From assembly GCA_023511585.1 (NCBI GenBank), contig JAIMBF010000004.1, positions 1 to 64,000 on the forward strand: a stretch of DNA of 64,000 nucleotides. Reading direction: 5' to 3'. Within the stretch, counting starts at the first letter, position 1; each line of letters starts with the position of its first letter. This document shows, one piece after another, positions 1 through 10,571 of this stretch. The notes beneath the pieces are model-generated. The model did no database searches. It saw nothing but the letters and a program-made list of their open reading frames with translations, and was not told the DNA's origin. Origin of the DNA: Terriglobia bacterium (GTDB lineage Bacteria; Pseudomonadota; Alphaproteobacteria; Acetobacterales; Acetobacteraceae). The translations under genes and the position numbers were made by a program.

Positions 1-2332
1 GTGACCTCTGCGATTCCTCCGGTATCGGTGCGGCAAACAAAAAGCCGAAAAAAATGGCAGAAAGTGCGCCGATGCCGACGGTAACCCCGATGCCGCGCAG
101 CAGCGGCACGCGAGAGAACGCTAAAAGCCCGAAGGTTGCCAAAGTCATGGCATTGCAAAGCCCAAGAGTTCGGAGCGTACGAAGGCGTTCTTCCGCATCA
201 AGCTGACGACGGGCGAAGAAAATTGCGTAATCGAGCCCAATCCCCGCGACAAGCTGCAAAGCCACCAAATGAAACACGCTGAACTTAACACCGAGAAACG
301 TCAGCAAGCCAAGTGTGACGACAATCGCGGCACCGACAGCGGCCAAGACGCCCAGAATGCGCCGCGCATCCCATAGCCCCGCGACCAACGCGGCAAGCGC
401 GGCAAACCCGCCGAACAAAAGCCAGCGTTCGGCCTGGCGGGTATAGGCTTGCACCAAGCCGTCGGTGGTTTTCTTGACGTCCAAAAACCGAAGACCGGGA
501 ACGGCCTTGATCGCATCCGCCAATGCTTGGGGTTGGCTCAAGCCGATCGGAGCAATGATCCCGAACCAAGAGCCTGCCGCTTGCAAAAGCAAAGGCTCCA
601 CTCTCGCGGCAAGAAGCGGGCTCGGCAGCGCATCCGGGCGAAGCGGGGCGAGCTCGCGGCTTTCCGCCACATCCGCGAGAAACGGCTGGAAGGCTTCGCT
701 GCGAAAGGGAGTTCCGACAAGGGCTTCGTCCAAGCGCGCCGCCAAGGTCTTGGAATCGGGCAAGGCTTTTTGCCGCGCCTGCTGAAGAGCGAGGCTCGGC
801 AGATAATCGGCGGCCATTTCTTTGCCGCTGAGGATTCCCCGCGCTTGCAGCTCCCGGAAAAGCGGGATCAGGCTTTCTTCTTTTTCGAGCACGGCTTCGA
901 TGCTCTCTCCCTCAACCAAAACGAGCTGCCCCACCTCGGGCGCGCCGACCTCCGCGCGCAAGGTTTCATCCAGCTTTTGATCGGCCAGCGGCACGGGGCT
1001 CAGATGCGCCAAGTCGGTTTCCAACGGCACCCCGCCGGCCGCACCGAGAACGGCGATGGCCGCCGCAACCGGCAAGGCTGCCCAGAGGCGATAGCGGCGC
1101 AGCGCTTCCCACGCGGGCAAACGCTCGGGGTGGCCCGCCGATACCGGCGAAAGCCCTGCGGCGACAATGAGAGGGGGTAAAAGGAAACGGGTCACCCCGG
1201 CTGCCACCAGTACTCCGACAAGAGCAAACAAACCGAGTTGCGAAAGCCCGGGAAACGGCGAGAACATCATGGCGGTCAGCCCCAGGGCGACGCATGTCAC
1301 CGAGAGGGCGAATGCCTTGCCGATCCGCGAGAGCGTTCCGGATACCGGTTCATTCTGCTTGCGATGGCCGAGAAACAGCACCGGATAATCGAGGGTAACG
1401 CCAAGCATGGTGATCCCGAAACCAAGCGTGGCCGTGTGAACAAATCCGAATGCGGCTTGCACCACCGCGGCGGCGGCGGCAATTCCAAGCAAGGCCGGCA
1501 CCGCAATGGCCGCAAGCACCCCAATCGCGCGAAACTGCAAAAGCAACAATACGACAATGAGGAGCGAGGACAGAACCGAAATCCAATGAACGTCCGCGCG
1601 AATGCGTGCCGCCGCGTCGCGGGCAAAAACCGGCGCTCCGGCGGCCAAAAGGCGTGCCTGACCGGGACGGGCGCCGGCAAAGGCGGCCTCGATCGCGCCG
1701 ACCGCGCGATCCTGCCCCGCAATGTCGGTTCCCAGAGCGCGCGTACGCGCAACAATCAGAGCTCGGTCTCGCTCAGGGGCAAACCATACGCCCTCTTGCA
1801 TGCGCAGTTTGCTCGGCCCGGCAAAACGTTGCAGAATGGCAAGAAACGTGCCGGGAGGATCCGCTAGCCCATAGCGTTTGACCAAAGCGGCCGCGGACCC
1901 GGAAAGCTCTTTCAGCAAAAGCAAGAGACCGTTGTGCAAAGAATTGACGCTAAAATCGGCCGGCCCGAGAAGATAGCGATATCGGAAGAGAATAGCCAAA
2001 TCCTTCTCGGCAAGAGCTGCATCGCCGTTCGCCACAAACTGGAAATCGTCCGATCGGAGAAGACGCTCAGTGACTTCGCGGCTTAATCGCGCAAGCTCTT
2101 CTTCCGGCGCCCCTTCGATGCCGATCAGGATCAAGGTTGCCGCCCCCTCGTGCAATGCGCTGATCAACAACCGTTCGGCGAAACTGTCTCCGTTCGGCAG
2201 CAACGCTGCCATATCGCTCTGCACATTTACGCGCGCCAAAACCAACGCGACGGTCGCGACCGCTGCGCAGAAGACGGCAAACAACGCGAATAAGCGGCGG
2301 ACGTAAAGAAAAGCGCGCAAGCCGGCAGTCAC
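1..2332 (-). CDS. MMPL/RND-type lipid exporter, 3' end cut by window edge
   Basis: Predicted inner-membrane exporter of the MMPL/RND superfamily (COG4258 type), expected to move the lipid product of this cluster across the inner membrane. I read it by hand from a GTG at 2332; the frame stays open to the window edge, so about 777 residues are seen and probably only a short tail is missing. A membrane helix at residues about 8-35 is followed by a periplasmic region beginning with the family-like SDMAALLP. Two MMPL signatures are visible: GVTLDYPVLFLGH near residue 312 and GIGLDYAIFFARR near residue 702. The start overlaps the upstream LolA-like stop as GTGA, indicating translational coupling. 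The family is clear; the substrate is inferred from the neighbours. Confidence 0.85.
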   Translation of the reverse strand, partial: MTAGLRAFLYVRRLFALFAVFCAAVATVALVLARVNVQSDMAALLPNGDSFAERLLISALHEGAATLILIGIEGAPEEELARLSREVTERLLRSDDFQFVANGDAALAEKDLAILFRYRYLLGPADFSVNSLHNGLLLLLKELSGSAAALVKRYGLADPPGTFLAILQRFAGPSKLRMQEGVWFAPERDRALIVARTRALGTDIAGQDRAVGAIEAAFAGARPGQARLLAAGAPVFARDAAARIRADVHWISVLSSLLIVVLLLLQFRAIGVLAAIAVPALLGIAAAAAVVQAAFGFVHTATLGFGITMLGVTLDYPVLFLGHRKQNEPVSGTLSRIGKAFALSVTCVALGLTAMMFSPFPGLSQLGLFALVGVLVAAGVTRFLLPPLIVAAGLSPVSAGHPERLPAWEALRRYRLWAALPVAAAIAVLGAAGGVPLETDLAHLSPVPLADQKLDETLRAEVGAPEVGQLVLVEGESIEAVLEKEESLIPLFRELQARGILSGKEMAADYLPSLALQQARQKALPDSKTLAARLDEALVGTPFRSEAFQPFLADVAESRELAPLRPDALPSPLLAARVEPLLLQAAGSWFGIIAPIGLSQPQALADAIKAVPGLRFLDVKKTTDGLVQAYTRQAERWLLFGGFAALAALVAGLWDARRILGVLAAVGAAIVVTLGLLTFLGVKFSVFHLVALQLVAGIGLDYAIFFARRQLDAEERLRTLRTLGLCNAMTLATFGLLAFSRVPLLRGIGVTVGIGALSAIFFGFLFAAPIPEESQRS

Positions 2333-2934
2333 TGTGAAATCGGGGTGATCGTCATACGCGAAGTATCCCCGTCGGCTTCGATCGTTTCGATGCGCCTGGG
2401 CTCCGCGTCCTGCCCTTCCACCGTTATTTCCCGAATGTATTTTGCGACCCTCTCCCCTTTCGGCTTCAGCGTTAAGCGCCAATCTTCAAGCGAGCCCGTG
2501 AGATCGATGGAGTAAAATTTCTCAAGCGCGGCAAGATTGCCGCCGAGCGTGCCGCGGATGGCGTCGATAAGCGCGCGAAGCTCGGGATGTTCCGGCAAAA
2601 ATACCATTTCGGTGCGGTTCTCGGTTTGCAGCCACGCTCTATCCCCATCCGCGACCAGCCTTTCCAGAGACGGCGATTCCGTTACTTTTTCCAAATGACC
2701 GGGGCGCGCATAAATCAGCCGCCCCTGCGCCTCAAGCGGCTTTGCCAGCGCGGCCATCCGCTTTTCCTCAACGAAACGTGCCTGGCGTGTGGGGACGGAG
2801 CCGAGGCGGCGCATCAGCTCATCGAGAGACAAGCTCGCCTGAGCCCAGTTCCCGATCGGCCAAAGCAGCACCAGGACGGCCGCGAGTGCGCCGATCGGGA
2901 TGCACGGGCGCTTTTGGGGCGCTTGGCCCGTCAT
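2329..2934 (-). CDS. LolA-like outer-membrane lipoprotein carrier domain protein
   Basis: A 201-residue periplasmic LolA-fold protein. Aryl-polyene-type clusters carry a dedicated LolA homologue next to the MMPL exporter, thought to ferry the lipid across the periplasm. The N-terminus is a signal peptide (basic MTGQAPQKRP, hydrophobic ALAAVLVLLW, cleavage after NWAQA). The mature part has the LolA pattern: ELMRRLGSVPTRQARFVEEK early, then beta-rich GRLIYARPGHLEK and a late SIDLTG-DWRLTLKPK segment. The ATG at 2934 is chosen because it gives a proper signal peptide; it lies 116 bp inside the upstream acyltransferase frame. No strong ribosome-binding site is visible, consistent with coupled translation. 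Confidence 0.8.
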   Translation of the reverse strand: MTGQAPQKRPCIPIGALAAVLVLLWPIGNWAQASLSLDELMRRLGSVPTRQARFVEEKRMAALAKPLEAQGRLIYARPGHLEKVTESPSLERLVADGDRAWLQTENRTEMVFLPEHPELRALIDAIRGTLGGNLAALEKFYSIDLTGSLEDWRLTLKPKGERVAKYIREITVEGQDAEPRRIETIEADGDTSRMTITPISQ

Positions 2935-3820
2935 CCCAAATATCGTGAAAATTGAACCAGTTGAACGGATACGTCCGACAGACGGCTTCCAGACATTGCG
3001 CAAAATAGGCGACCCTCTCTTCGAGATCGGTTGCTCGGCTCGCAGGACGTAAAAAGAGCCGATCGGCGAAAGGTTCAAACCGTACTTCGTAGCGTCCCGG
3101 CTCGGTACGGATGGCAAAGCACAGTAATACCGGTGCATCAAGTATGGCCGCAAGCTTCATGGGGCCTATCGGAAAGGAGGCGAAGCCGCCGAGAAACGGG
3201 ACCCTCAGCATTCTGCGCTCGTCCGGGCTGCGATCGGCAAGCATGGCCACAAACTCGCCGCGAGCGATAGCCTCGCGCGCGGCAAGCATGCTCTCGGGGG
3301 TGCCGATCGCAATCACGTTGCGCAGAAACTGCGAGTTGCGTTGCCTGAGCGCCGCGCTGAACGGGCCGAGCTCGACGGGAAACATCAGCATGCGCACCGG
3401 CACCGGGCATTCGCGCTCGGCGATCAGGCGTAGGACGTCGAAATTGCCGAAATGCGCGCCCAGCAACAGCGCGCCGCGCTTGGCTGCGACCAGAGCACGC
3501 AGGTAGCCGACCCCTTTCAGAGAGATTTCGAATTCGTCTTCGCGCCCGCAGGCGATCAGCCAGCGCTCGTAGAGAACCGAGGCAAAGCTCAAGAAATGGC
3601 GGAAAACATCGCGCGTGCCGGGGCGAGAGGAAAGCACGCGCGCCAGGTAGCGCCGCGAGGCGCGCCGGGCCCTTCGGCAGGTGAGCAGGAAATACAGCGT
3701 GATGGGATAGAGCAAAGCCCGTCCCAGCGGCGAGCCGAAGGCCTCGGTGAGCCATATCATCAGCCGTATGGCAAAACGGCTTCCTCGCTCGCGTCCGACC
3801 GTCCAGTTCTGCGACGTCAC
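2819..3820 (-). CDS. LpxL/HtrB-like lipid acyltransferase
   Basis: A 333-residue membrane-associated acyltransferase of the LpxL/HtrB (lysophospholipid acyltransferase-like) family. A hydrophobic N-terminal anchor (residues about 20-48) precedes the catalytic H-x4-D motif in GAHFGNFD. Later family features are FVAMLADRSPDERR, VPFLGG and FPIGPMKLA, and the core ends at FNWFNFHDIWD. About 38 residues follow this usual end point, and they are read from the same DNA as the LolA-like start in another frame. The GTG start at 3820 overlaps the dehydratase stop as GTGA. In aryl-polyene-type clusters an acyltransferase of this kind completes the membrane-bound lipid; that role is inferred here. Confidence 0.85.
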   Translation of the reverse strand: MTSQNWTVGRERGSRFAIRLMIWLTEAFGSPLGRALLYPITLYFLLTCRRARRASRRYLARVLSSRPGTRDVFRHFLSFASVLYERWLIACGREDEFEISLKGVGYLRALVAAKRGALLLGAHFGNFDVLRLIAERECPVPVRMLMFPVELGPFSAALRQRNSQFLRNVIAIGTPESMLAAREAIARGEFVAMLADRSPDERRMLRVPFLGGFASFPIGPMKLAAILDAPVLLCFAIRTEPGRYEVRFEPFADRLFLRPASRATDLEERVAYFAQCLEAVCRTYPFNWFNFHDIWDDGPSAPKAPVHPDRRTRGRPGAALADRELGSGELVSR

Positions 3821-4149
3821 GGTTGGGGCACTTCCAGCAGCGCAACTCCGCTTATCAACACAGCATCGCCGACATAACCGGCAAAATTGACCCGATCGGG
3901 CGCCGGCAAAACATAACGCACGGCGACGTTCTCCTCCGGGCCAAGGGGACGGCGGAACTTGACGTCGCGAAGCGCCACGACCGGGCCTTTGCCAAGGGCG
4001 GCCTCAATGAGAGAGACGCACTCGGCAAGAATAACGACGCCCGGCACCACGGGCTGGCCGGGAAAATGGCCATCGAGCGAAGGATCTTCACGAGAAATCG
4101 CAAATCTGCCGATTTCGATCACCGCGCTTTGTCCGTTATGGGTCGCCAA
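3817..4149 (-). CDS. Hot-dog fold 3-hydroxyacyl-ACP dehydratase (ApeI/FabZ-like)
   Basis: A small (about 110 residues) hot-dog dehydratase expected to remove water from 3-hydroxyacyl-ACP intermediates during polyene chain building. The FabZ/ApeI signature is visible: DPSLDGHFPGQPVVPGV contains the catalytic His and the conserved PGxPVVPGV turn, followed by VALRDVKFRRPL. Two starts are possible: a TTG at 4149, overlapping the AMP-ligase stop by 14 bp, or a GTG at 4122 giving about 101 residues. I give the longer form. The stop overlaps the acyltransferase GTG. It is about the length of ApeI proteins and shorter than housekeeping FabZ, which supports a cluster-specific role. Confidence 0.8.
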   Translation of the reverse strand: MATHNGQSAVIEIGRFAISREDPSLDGHFPGQPVVPGVVILAECVSLIEAALGKGPVVALRDVKFRRPLGPEENVAVRYVLPAPDRVNFAGYVGDAVLISGVALLEVPQP

Positions 4150-5503
4150 AGCGGGCGGAAAGCGCCCTAAGCGCTTGCCGGGGCAGCTTCCCCGTTGCGT
4201 TGCGCGGCAGCCGCTCGAGCTTGATAATGCGTCGGGGCAGAAAGGCGGGCTCGATCTTTTGGCTGAGTGCGGCGCGGATCTCGGCCACGGAACGGGTAGG
4301 GGCCACGACGTAAGCGGTGAGCCGTGCTGTCGGTTCGGAATCAAGATTTTCGGGGGCGACGAAGATCCCGTCCTCCACCCCTTCGATTTCCATCAATGCC
4401 TGCGTCAGCCCCGCAAGCGAGGCGCGCTTGCCGGCCCGCTTGATGAGATCCTCCCTGCGGCCCAGAAGGCGGAAACGGGTGCTATCCACGAGCGCGATGG
4501 CATCGGCGAGGCGCCCCGGCGGAGTACCTTCGGCAAACACGCGCACGCCGCCTTCCTCGGCTGCCAGCGTGATGCCGGAATAGGTTTGCCATTCCTCTTC
4601 CGCCGTGGTGCGCCGGGTGGCGATGGCGCCGACCTCGGTGGCACCGAAAATTTCGAAAACCTTCGTCTGCCAGCGGCGCTCGGCGGCTTCGGCTTGATCG
4701 GCGGAAAGCGGCGCGGTGGCGGAGATGATACCGGCCAGCGGTGGAAGGCTTACCTCGCTCGCAAGCAGCGCGCGAAGCTGAAACGGCGTGGTGACCAGCC
4801 AACGCGGTTCCTGCATTGTCTGCAGGGCCGCAAGAATATCGCTCGGGTAAAAGGCGTCACCGCAAAAGCTTGCCGCCGGGGCATGCCAGGGAAGCAGGAG
4901 CGTGCTTTCCAGCCCATACATGTGTTGGGAGGGCACGGTTCCCACAATGCCTGCGGGAGCATCCGATTCGAATTGAAACCGCTCGGCCGCCGTGAGCGTA
5001 CGCGCAACCAACGAACCCCAGTGTTTGGCATGCGGGACCGGCTCACCGGTCGAGCCCGAGGTCAATACCAAGGCTGCCAATTGGTCTGCGGCCAAGAGCG
5101 GCGGCGCGTCATCGCCTTGTCCGCGCTCAGGCTCGAAACCGACGATATGAACGGGCAGCGCCACCCTCAGATCGGGCGCCTCGGCCAGCACATAGGCCTG
5201 TGGATAGCGGCGCGCCAAAGCCTTCAGCCATTGCTCCGTTGGATCGCCGGCGAGGATACTGACCTGGCCTCGCAAAAGAGCCGCGGCAAACCCAACCGCG
5301 ACATAAAGGCGGTTGTGACAAAGGTTCACCACGTAAGGCGCCGGCGGGAGCCTGGCTGCCAAGGCGCGGGCGGCAGCGAGAAATTGGCCGGCGGTAATGC
5401 GCACGCTCAGCGTGCGATAGAGTTCGTCCTCCGGCGCTCGGCCGAGAAGGGGAAGCCGATCAGGGGGCGAAAACGGTGAAGACGAGCCGCAAGCAGCGCT
5501 CAT
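4136..5503 (-). CDS. AMP-ligase (ANL-family acyl-activating enzyme)
   Basis: A 455-residue adenylate-forming enzyme predicted to activate an aryl or acyl carboxylate with ATP and load it on the neighbouring acyl carrier protein. ANL motifs run in order: the phosphate-binding loop LTSGSTGEPVPHAK, the A5-like segment FEIFGATEVGAIATR, the hinge FRLLGRREDLIKRAGKR, and the C-terminal catalytic lysine region RNATGKLPRQAL. The protein is shorter than typical acyl-CoA synthetases, as is usual for aryl-polyene AMP-ligases. The ATG at 5503 lies 8 bp after the ACP stop, and the 3' end overlaps the dehydratase start. The exact substrate cannot be read from the sequence. Confidence 0.85.
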   Translation of the reverse strand: MSAACGSSSPFSPPDRLPLLGRAPEDELYRTLSVRITAGQFLAAARALAARLPPAPYVVNLCHNRLYVAVGFAAALLRGQVSILAGDPTEQWLKALARRYPQAYVLAEAPDLRVALPVHIVGFEPERGQGDDAPPLLAADQLAALVLTSGSTGEPVPHAKHWGSLVARTLTAAERFQFESDAPAGIVGTVPSQHMYGLESTLLLPWHAPAASFCGDAFYPSDILAALQTMQEPRWLVTTPFQLRALLASEVSLPPLAGIISATAPLSADQAEAAERRWQTKVFEIFGATEVGAIATRRTTAEEEWQTYSGITLAAEEGGVRVFAEGTPPGRLADAIALVDSTRFRLLGRREDLIKRAGKRASLAGLTQALMEIEGVEDGIFVAPENLDSEPTARLTAYVVAPTRSVAEIRAALSQKIEPAFLPRRIIKLERLPRNATGKLPRQALRALSARFGDP

Positions 5504-5511
5504 GCCACCTC

Positions 5512-5790
5512 TTAGCGGGTTCGGTGCTCGGCGATATAGCCGGCAAGACTGCGCAGGGAGGCAAAAATCTCTTTGTTGCGGGCGTCGTCAGACTTGATTT
5601 CCACTCCGTAGGCCCGCGAAATGGCCAAAGCGAGCTCCAGCGCATCGATCGAATCCAGGCCAAGCTCGTCACCGAAAAGGGGCATGACCGGATCAATACT
5701 CTCCGGAGGAATGTCCAAATGCAAGGTTTCCACGAGCAGGCGGGCAAGCTCCGCTTCTTCCGCCGTTTGATGATCTATGGCCGTCGGCAC
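5512..5790 (-). CDS. Acyl carrier protein
   Basis: A 92-residue acyl carrier protein, first gene of the lipid operon. The phosphopantetheine attachment motif is LGLDSIDALEL, with the modified serine after the aspartate, in a four-helix ACP context (LLVETLHLDIPPESIDPVMPLFGDE before it, RAYGVEIKSDD after it). The GTG at 5790 is chosen because an AGAGGAGAGA ribosome-binding site lies just upstream, although the frame is open further. It probably carries the growing chain for the ligase and dehydratase encoded next. Aryl-polyene clusters often have two ACPs; only one is seen here. The gene is divergent from the polysaccharide deacetylase, so the operon promoter should lie within the 102 bp between the two start codons. 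Confidence 0.85.
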   Translation of the reverse strand: MPTAIDHQTAEEAELARLLVETLHLDIPPESIDPVMPLFGDELGLDSIDALELALAISRAYGVEIKSDDARNKEIFASLRSLAGYIAEHRTR

Positions 5791-5892: not shown

Positions 5893-6750
5893 ATGAACAA
5901 ATCGCGAAAGTATACCAAAGTGCAGGATCGGCCTCAAAGCAGCTCCCGTGTGACTTTTAGCGTTGATGTCGAGAACCACCGCGCCGGGCTGGCCGAGCCG
6001 CATCGGTATCGGGCGATGACGCGCCTACTGATGGATTTCCTGGAGCAACACGGCATTCGCGGCACGTTTTTTGTGGTCGCGGAACTTGCTTTGGAAAGCC
6101 CGGAGCTGATCGCCGAAATCGCCGCGCGCGGACATGAGCCGGCCTGCCACGGCAACCGGCATACGCCGCTTTCTCGGCTCACACCCGGGGAATTTGCCCG
6201 CTCGCTCTCCGAGGCCAAGCGAAGGCTGGAAGCCTCCGCGGGCAGCCCTGTGATCGGCTTCCGCGCGCCGCTCTTTTCGCTCACCCCGGCCACGCGCTGG
6301 GCAGTGCCTATTTTGGCCGAGACCGGATTTCGCTACTCCTCCAGCGTGCTGCCGGGGTGGGGTTTTGCCTATGGCTACCCCGGGGCACCGCGCCGACCGT
6401 TTTTATGGCCGGAGGGAGTCTTGGAAATCCCCTGCCCGGTTTTTCGGTTCGGACCGCTCGCGTTGCCGATCCTCGGCGGGATGTATATGCGCTGGCTGCC
6501 GCCTTGGGACTGGGCATGGATGCGGCGTAGGCTCGGCCGTCAGCTTCTCTGGACCTACTGCCACCCCTATGACATCGACACGGCCGAGCCTTTTTGCCGC
6601 TTGCCGGGGCTTGGATGGGCCAGCAGCTTCATGCTCTGGGCCCGGCGGGGGGTGACGCTTCGGCGTTGGAACAAGCTTGCCAAGTACGCCGCCCCCCCGT
6701 TTCGGGAGAGGTTGGCGGAAATCGCCTCAATGGCGCGTGCCGGCCCGTGA
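5893..6750 (+). CDS. Polysaccharide deacetylase (NodB domain)
   Basis: A 285-residue carbohydrate esterase 4 (NodB homology) protein that would remove N- or O-acetyl groups from a polysaccharide. The motifs run in order: FSVDVEN (metal/catalytic Asp motif), GTFFVVAELA, the metal-binding ACHGNRHTP, GFRAPLFSLTP, and TYCHPYDID near the end. The spacing and the FSVDVEN/GFRAPLFS pattern resemble deacetylases associated with exopolysaccharide loci. No signal peptide is seen with the ATG at 5893, so it may act in the cytoplasm or at the membrane. The frame is open 21 codons further upstream. It is divergent from the ACP operon and its stop is 9 bp from the convergent GST stop. Confidence 0.85.
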   Translation: MNKSRKYTKVQDRPQSSSRVTFSVDVENHRAGLAEPHRYRAMTRLLMDFLEQHGIRGTFFVVAELALESPELIAEIAARGHEPACHGNRHTPLSRLTPGEFARSLSEAKRRLEASAGSPVIGFRAPLFSLTPATRWAVPILAETGFRYSSSVLPGWGFAYGYPGAPRRPFLWPEGVLEIPCPVFRFGPLALPILGGMYMRWLPPWDWAWMRRRLGRQLLWTYCHPYDIDTAEPFCRLPGLGWASSFMLWARRGVTLRRWNKLAKYAAPPFRERLAEIASMARAGP

Positions 6751-9834: not shown

Positions 9835-9990
9835 CACGGCGCCGGCCGGGCCGGGTTGGCCACTTTTTTAGGACGTCCGAATTTTATCTTCCGCCCTCAC
9901 GCAGCCAAAGACACATCGAGATTCGTCAGAAGTCGTGCGTGAGAATTTCGATGCCGCGCCGGCAGATCCTGCTTCGCCGAGAAGGCACAC

Positions 9991-10269
9991 ATGAACCACA
10001 AAAAGCTGCGAGGGCCATTGCTGTGCGTTTCCGACAACGGCACTGCACTCACCGGCACGGCGATCCTGCGCCGGCGCCGGGAGAGCGGCATCGAACGGCA
10101 CGACATCGTCCCCGGCAAGCCGACGCAGAACGCCTGCATCGAAAGCTTCAATGGGCGACTGCGCGATAAATTGCCGAACGAAACCCTGTTCGTCTCGCCG
10201 GCGCATGCACGCGTCGTGCTCGCGGCATGGATGATCGACTGCAACACTATCAGACCGCACCGCGGCTGA
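9991..10269 (+). pseudogene. IS3-family transposase (OrfB integrase core) fragment
   Basis: A 92-residue remnant of the DDE integrase core of an IS3-type OrfB. The second catalytic aspartate is in [10 protein letters not shown] and the catalytic glutamate in [14 protein letters not shown], preceded by the family-typical IVPGKPTQN; it ends with CNTIRPHRG. The first catalytic Asp, the helix-turn-helix OrfA and the N-terminal half of OrfB are absent, so it cannot be functional. No intact terminal inverted repeats were recognised. It is the left part of a decayed accessory region. Confidence 0.75.
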
Positions 10270-10334
10270 CTAAGTTGTGGCTGCTCGGACAAGCCCTAAT
10301 GTCGATCCGGAGCTCCCGTAGGGAACCACTAGGT

Positions 10335-10571
10335 CGTACGCGCGCGGTGCCGTTCCGGATGCCTGCGCCCGGCGAGGCGATTCGCGGCACCTACCGCGAG
10401 GCGATCCAGCTCGCCTCCGGCCGCTACGCCCTGGTCGAGAACGCCCAGGAATTCACCCTGGTCCCCTGGCGACCGGTGATCGAGCGCAGCGTTGGCCGCG
10501 AGGTCGTCGGGCTCGTCGCCAAAGGCGGGATTTCGTGGCAGATGGGCCGGGATCGCGGGATCGGCATCTGA
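10335..10571 (+). pseudogene. C-terminal remnant of a DUF3363-type relaxase
   Basis: The reading frame encodes a conserved C-terminal tail known from DUF3363-containing (VirD2-like) relaxases of conjugative elements: a REAIQLASGRYALVE segment, FTLVPWRPVIERSVGREV, and the terminal GISWQMGRDRGIGI before the stop at 10571. Only about 75 residues of homology are visible, and the catalytic N-terminal relaxase domain is absent. This is evidence of a former plasmid or integrative conjugative element. The family call rests on memory of the conserved tail; a profile search would confirm it. Confidence 0.55.

Follow-up and report, generated by a model that had tools for sequence, protein, structure and literature searches.

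Introduction

Aryl polyene clusters have been described with one or with two acyl carrier proteins (ACPs). The arcuflavin genes of Azoarcus sp. BH72 (arcA-L and arcM-X) are of the former kind and lie in two unlinked halves, the ketosynthase (KS) half apart from arcM-X in the genome (PMC3949708). They encode a single ACP (arcV), an AMP-ligase, a dehydratase, an acyltransferase, a LolA protein, an exporter, a polysaccharide deacetylase, a KS, a chain-length-factor-like (CLF-like) protein and a second dehydratase, all with counterparts in the genome studied here; a ketoreductase (KR), a halogenase, a glycosyltransferase and a PlsC-like protein, whose orthologues we did not find; and additionally chorismatase and methyltransferase genes (PMC3949708). 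In the available part of that paper no thioesterase is listed and the word does not occur. Insertion mutants in arcK and arcT are colourless, and ArcT has low substrate specificity in vitro (PMC3949708).

The xanthomonadin-like cluster of Lysobacter enzymogenes OH11 also has one ACP, and shares with the present locus two dehydratases, a KS with an unusual CLF-like partner and a LolA-like protein, with neither thioesterase nor halogenase in the part of the account available; it differs in having a KR, which is required for pigment, and deletion of its KS, ACP or KR gene gave a white phenotype (PMC3691225). The apeA-R cluster of E. coli CFT073 has a ligase, a dehydratase, a LolA protein, an RND exporter, a KS and a second dehydratase in an order similar to that seen here, but differs by two ACPs, the glycosyltransferase/acyltransferase ApeJ, the thioesterase ApeK and a third KS (PMC8253772). 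Both kinds are known from Ralstonia, with one ACP in a pig-type and two in an ape-type cluster (PMC9542644). Among Acetobacteraceae, 19 of 43 acidophilic genomes and 28 of 96 acetous ones were reported to carry aryl polyene clusters, in which halogenase and transport genes were noted (PMC8776678). What is said here of these papers, absences included, applies to the parts of them that were available.

Here we describe a one-ACP locus at the start of a 64,000-nucleotide stretch of DNA (the window) from an Acetobacteraceae genome. We conclude that it is very probably an ordinary xanthomonadin/arcuflavin-type cluster for an aryl polyene, interrupted by a gap in the assembly.

Results

Six cluster genes run off the end of a contig

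Base 1 of the window is base 1 of contig C135 (73,622 bases), and its left edge is thus a contig end; the assembly comprises 3.14 Mb in 201 contigs and is 96.4% complete. Six genes, each with Pfam support and all on the minus strand, run from position 5790 leftwards to this edge in the order ACP, AMP-ligase, small dehydratase, LpxL-type acyltransferase, LolA and MMPL, in agreement with a first-pass annotation of the sequence. The cluster is cut in two because C135 ends inside the operon.

The ACP (ArcV/XanC-like; 5512..5790, GTG start at 5790; PP-binding, 2.8e-11) scores 114.5 bits against NCBIfam NF006617, a phosphopantetheine-binding protein model with a cut-off of 70, and is 58-65% identical to the ACPs of several relatives. 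It is followed by a predicted AMP-dependent aromatic acid:ACP ligase (ArcT/ApeH-like; 4136..5503; AMP-binding, 3.2e-15), assigned also by its place in a tree and 48-53% identical to its nearest relatives. The small hotdog 3-hydroxyacyl-ACP dehydratase (ArcS/ApeI-like; 3819..4122; FabA-like, 5.2e-06) matches the FabZ chain 5bux (9e-05), and its GHFPG motif aligns with those of the relatives' dehydratases. Next come the LpxL-type lipid acyltransferase (ArcR-like; 2819..3820; Lip_A_acyltrans, 1.1e-11), which carries no glycosyltransferase fusion, and the LolA-like periplasmic carrier (ArcQ/ApeL-like; 2329..2934; LolA_3, 1.7e-20), which also matches the flexirubin LolA model LolA2_flexi with a score under the cut-off. 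The MMPL/RND exporter (ArcP/ApeM-like; 1..2332; MMPL, 2.8e-11) is near-complete, truncated by the contig end, and 50-54% identical to its nearest relatives across nearly the full length.

The motifs of these proteins are intact: the DSI serine of the ACP, the TSGSTG loop and C-terminal NATGK lysine of the ligase, GHFPG in the dehydratase, HFGNFD (H-x4-D) in the acyltransferase and GLDY in the MMPL protein, which we take to be the expected active-site motifs. Coupling of the genes by GTGA overlaps, as first annotated, applies to two of the five junctions, dehydratase/acyltransferase near 3820 and LolA/MMPL near 2331. At the other three, short gaps part the ACP from the ligase and the ligase from the dehydratase, and the acyltransferase and LolA genes overlap by about 116 nt, given a LolA start at ATG 2934. 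A scan for promoters and terminators returned matches at chance level only.

Upstream of the ACP gene and divergent from it lies a polysaccharide deacetylase gene with a DUF3473 domain (5893..6750, plus strand; Polysacc_deac_1, 4.4e-15; DUF3473, 1.7e-20). A 51% homologue holds the equivalent divergent position in locus L027, and many other loci carry a deacetylase of a different subtype; the gene is likely an associated neighbour of the cluster.

Relatives share the one-ACP architecture

Searched with the ligase, 40 genomes (our own among them) yielded 11 strong matches (E < 1e-69, counting the own ligase) and two weaker ones over more than half the length. The locus set consisted of the 10 foreign strong and two weaker matches, 12 loci from named genomes and two of five matching plasmid records; two stretches of the own genome (L037, L038) were excluded from the count. 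Gene content was scored by BLAST at E 1e-4, with the proteins of four loci and of the own genome as references.

Loci of the window's kind numbered 24. One ACP was present in 23 of them, the exception being a 3.4 kb fragment with none (L043), and a thioesterase in none (0/24 at E 1e-4), counts that may miss a strongly divergent thioesterase or additional ACP and in which several loci are contig fragments. The window's gene order runs on in these relatives into a KS (20/24, the remaining four being contig fragments), a CLF-like gene (19/24), a second dehydratase, DH2 (18/24), and mostly a KR, which immediately follows DH2 in all but one (L031) of the 18 loci with DH2. At L031 (13402-17093) a halogenase-like gene comes directly after DH2. 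The order cannot be coincidental, because it recurs in strongly diverged relatives, and an equivalent order is seen in the annotated sequences of Roseomonas haemaphysalidis and Azospirillum ramasamyi. On R. haemaphysalidis p546-1 (NZ_CP061178, L051) the series ACP, ligase, dehydratase, acyltransferase, LolA, MMPL, KS, CLF, dehydratase is the same as here, with one ACP and no thioesterase; it differs in that the ACP and ligase genes flank a gene for a hypothetical protein, and it has in addition a KR, a GT2, a PlsC-type acyltransferase, two methyltransferases, MipA and a halogenase. The KS of another relative, L025, has as its nearest PDB entries 6qsp_A and 7f28_B, which we take to be aryl polyene ketosynthases.

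The single ACP and the lack of a thioesterase gene before LolA, both borne out by the window's gene content, had suggested at first annotation that the product may differ from known types. We rejected this idea, as the same two features are normal for the xanthomonadin/arcuflavin branch, both in the counts above and in the available parts of published accounts (PMC3949708, PMC3691225, PMC9542644).

Three further loci (L035, L036 and L063) are of another kind, each with two ACPs, a GT2 and a thioesterase (3/3, their own proteins having doubled as reference queries). Trees of the ligase (28 rows) and MMPL protein (24 rows) split off these three with 100/100 support, leaving 25 and 21 rows, respectively, on the other side; long branches meet at this split and make its depth uncertain, though the architectures differ too. 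In both trees the window falls among the one-ACP loci, and in the MMPL tree it groups with the family members L025, L026, L028 and L031 (100/99). The Roseomonas locus groups inside family f1 of the relatives. One-ACP and two-ACP types coexist inside one bacterial family, represented by L025-L034 and by L035 and L036, respectively.

These data bear on whether the window holds a canonical E. coli/Vibrio-type apeA-R cluster in which a second ACP and a thioesterase were overlooked. The overall gene order is common to both types and apeA-R-type loci occur in the same family (L035, L036), but no second ACP, thioesterase or GT2-acyltransferase lies between ACP and LolA, the gene upstream of the ACP is the divergent deacetylase, and both trees set the two-ACP loci apart, long branches notwithstanding. 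We rejected this assignment for the sequenced part, where the two-ACP, glycosyltransferase/acyltransferase and thioesterase features do not occur, and consider it barely credible overall.

A probable second half of the operon on contig C38

The own contigs were searched with PF00109 and then with a Roseomonas KS protein and the PF13723 profile. PF00109 returned a FabF-type gene and two weak matches in the own genome and did not find the cluster KS, because the KS half under that model is unassembled. The C-terminal part of the KS is encoded at the very end of contig C38 (30,079 bases), at C38:29627-30073 on the minus strand (66% identical to the Roseomonas KS; PF02801, 2.8e-33), and adjoins a CLF-like protein gene (PF13723, 1.2e-28, 100.6 bits). 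With these two genes on C38, we rejected the notion that the own genome has no KS genes. DH2 (16376-16807 of L062, on C38) had no Pfam match and was recognised as a homologue of annotated DH2 genes, with 53-58% identity to the DH2 of L025 and L028.

Transcription runs out of the left end of C135 and into the right end of C38, so that orientation and synteny together suggest that the two ends are adjacent. Alignment to full-length KS proteins puts the missing piece at about 235-247 residues (about 0.7 kb), the half of the KS with the active-site cysteine. The GC content is 0.61-0.62 in both halves, equal to the remainder. The contig of genome G017 likewise breaks off inside the KS (L026). The proposal that the window holds the proximal half of an aryl-polyene-type operon is supported by most of the missing half at the matching C38 end; of the KS and reductase genes expected beyond the left edge, the KS was found, with CLF-like gene and DH2, and a dedicated reductase was not found in the assembly.

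Ketoreductase, tailoring and starter genes

Sixty-six bases past DH2 lies a convergent SbmA/BacA-like ABC transporter gene. The best match to the cluster KR in the own assembly reached 43%, compared with 63-78% among relatives (15 non-reference loci), and the best match to GT2 35%, compared with 60-78%; for the PlsC-type acyltransferase the best was 30% and partial, and a halogenase search gave weak partial matches only, so that no orthologue of the four was found in an assembly that is incomplete and has its gap inside the cluster, and their absence is not proven. The second-best KR match (42%) lies in a FabG-ACP-FabF cluster on contig C150, which could supply the KR step. A COG4648-like membrane protein was not found in a search that had no positive control.

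The missing KR could reflect FabG acting in trans, a KR gene inside the gap, or decay of the pathway. If decaying, the cluster would have lost its KR and tailoring genes and would make no pigment. The transporter gene in place of a KR after DH2 and the four orthologues not found fit such decay, as does the Lysobacter KR mutant, which made no pigment (PMC3691225, available part). Against it, all sequenced cluster frames are open with motifs intact, L031 of the same family likewise has no KR after DH2, and FabG could work in trans. We regard decay as unlikely. We give somewhat short of an even chance to a reduced cluster of the xanthomonadin type, which has lost the KR, glycosyltransferase, PlsC and halogenase of its own and would make an undecorated aryl polyene with a FabG borrowed from fatty acid synthesis.

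No starter synthase was identified: UbiC-family chorismate lyase was not found in the own genome in a search positive for the E. coli control, and PF21168 (XanB2-type chorismatase) matched no control genome and is silent on the own genome. This result, and the low specificity of ArcT in vitro (PMC3949708, available part), would suit a related type II polyketide lipid, with another starter acid or as a polyene-dialkylresorcinol hybrid like arcuflavin. However, xanthomonadin-like loci have orthologues of the ligase, ACP, KS and CLF, and we consider such a product quite unlikely.

Discussion

The ordinary xanthomonadin/arcuflavin-type cluster that we favour adds to an already known kind, and the missing KR is the only loose end. 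By analogy with the described systems, its ligase would load an aromatic acid, perhaps 3- or 4-hydroxybenzoate, onto the single ACP, and the KS/CLF-like pair encoded on C38 would extend the chain with malonyl units. Reduction by a KR, a role probably filled by FabG from fatty acid synthesis, and dehydration by the two dehydratases would leave a double bond at each unit. The LpxL-type acyltransferase probably passes the finished polyene straight to a membrane lipid or sugar, and such direct transfer would account for the absent thioesterase. LolA and the MMPL protein would then bring the polyene to the outer membrane, where it may guard against oxidation. From the genes alone, the predicted product is an aryl polyene, a yellow, carotenoid-like membrane pigment.

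With this genome, another member of the Acetobacteraceae becomes a likely aryl polyene producer. A cluster without a KR of its own, if confirmed, would test whether one KR can serve both this pathway and fatty acid synthesis.

Further observations

The minus strand of C38 (L062, 12495-14037) holds a 126-aa frame in which the motif WCVACGAGK occurs twice, followed by a gene for a radical SAM/SPASM protein. Neither Pfam nor NCBIfam matched the 126-aa peptide, and its motif was not found in the literature searched; judged by sequence, the pair resembles the precursor of a modified peptide (RiPP) with its maturase. In the window, short plus-strand frames at 9939-10571 look by eye like a transposase fragment, with a resemblance to IS3-type integrases.
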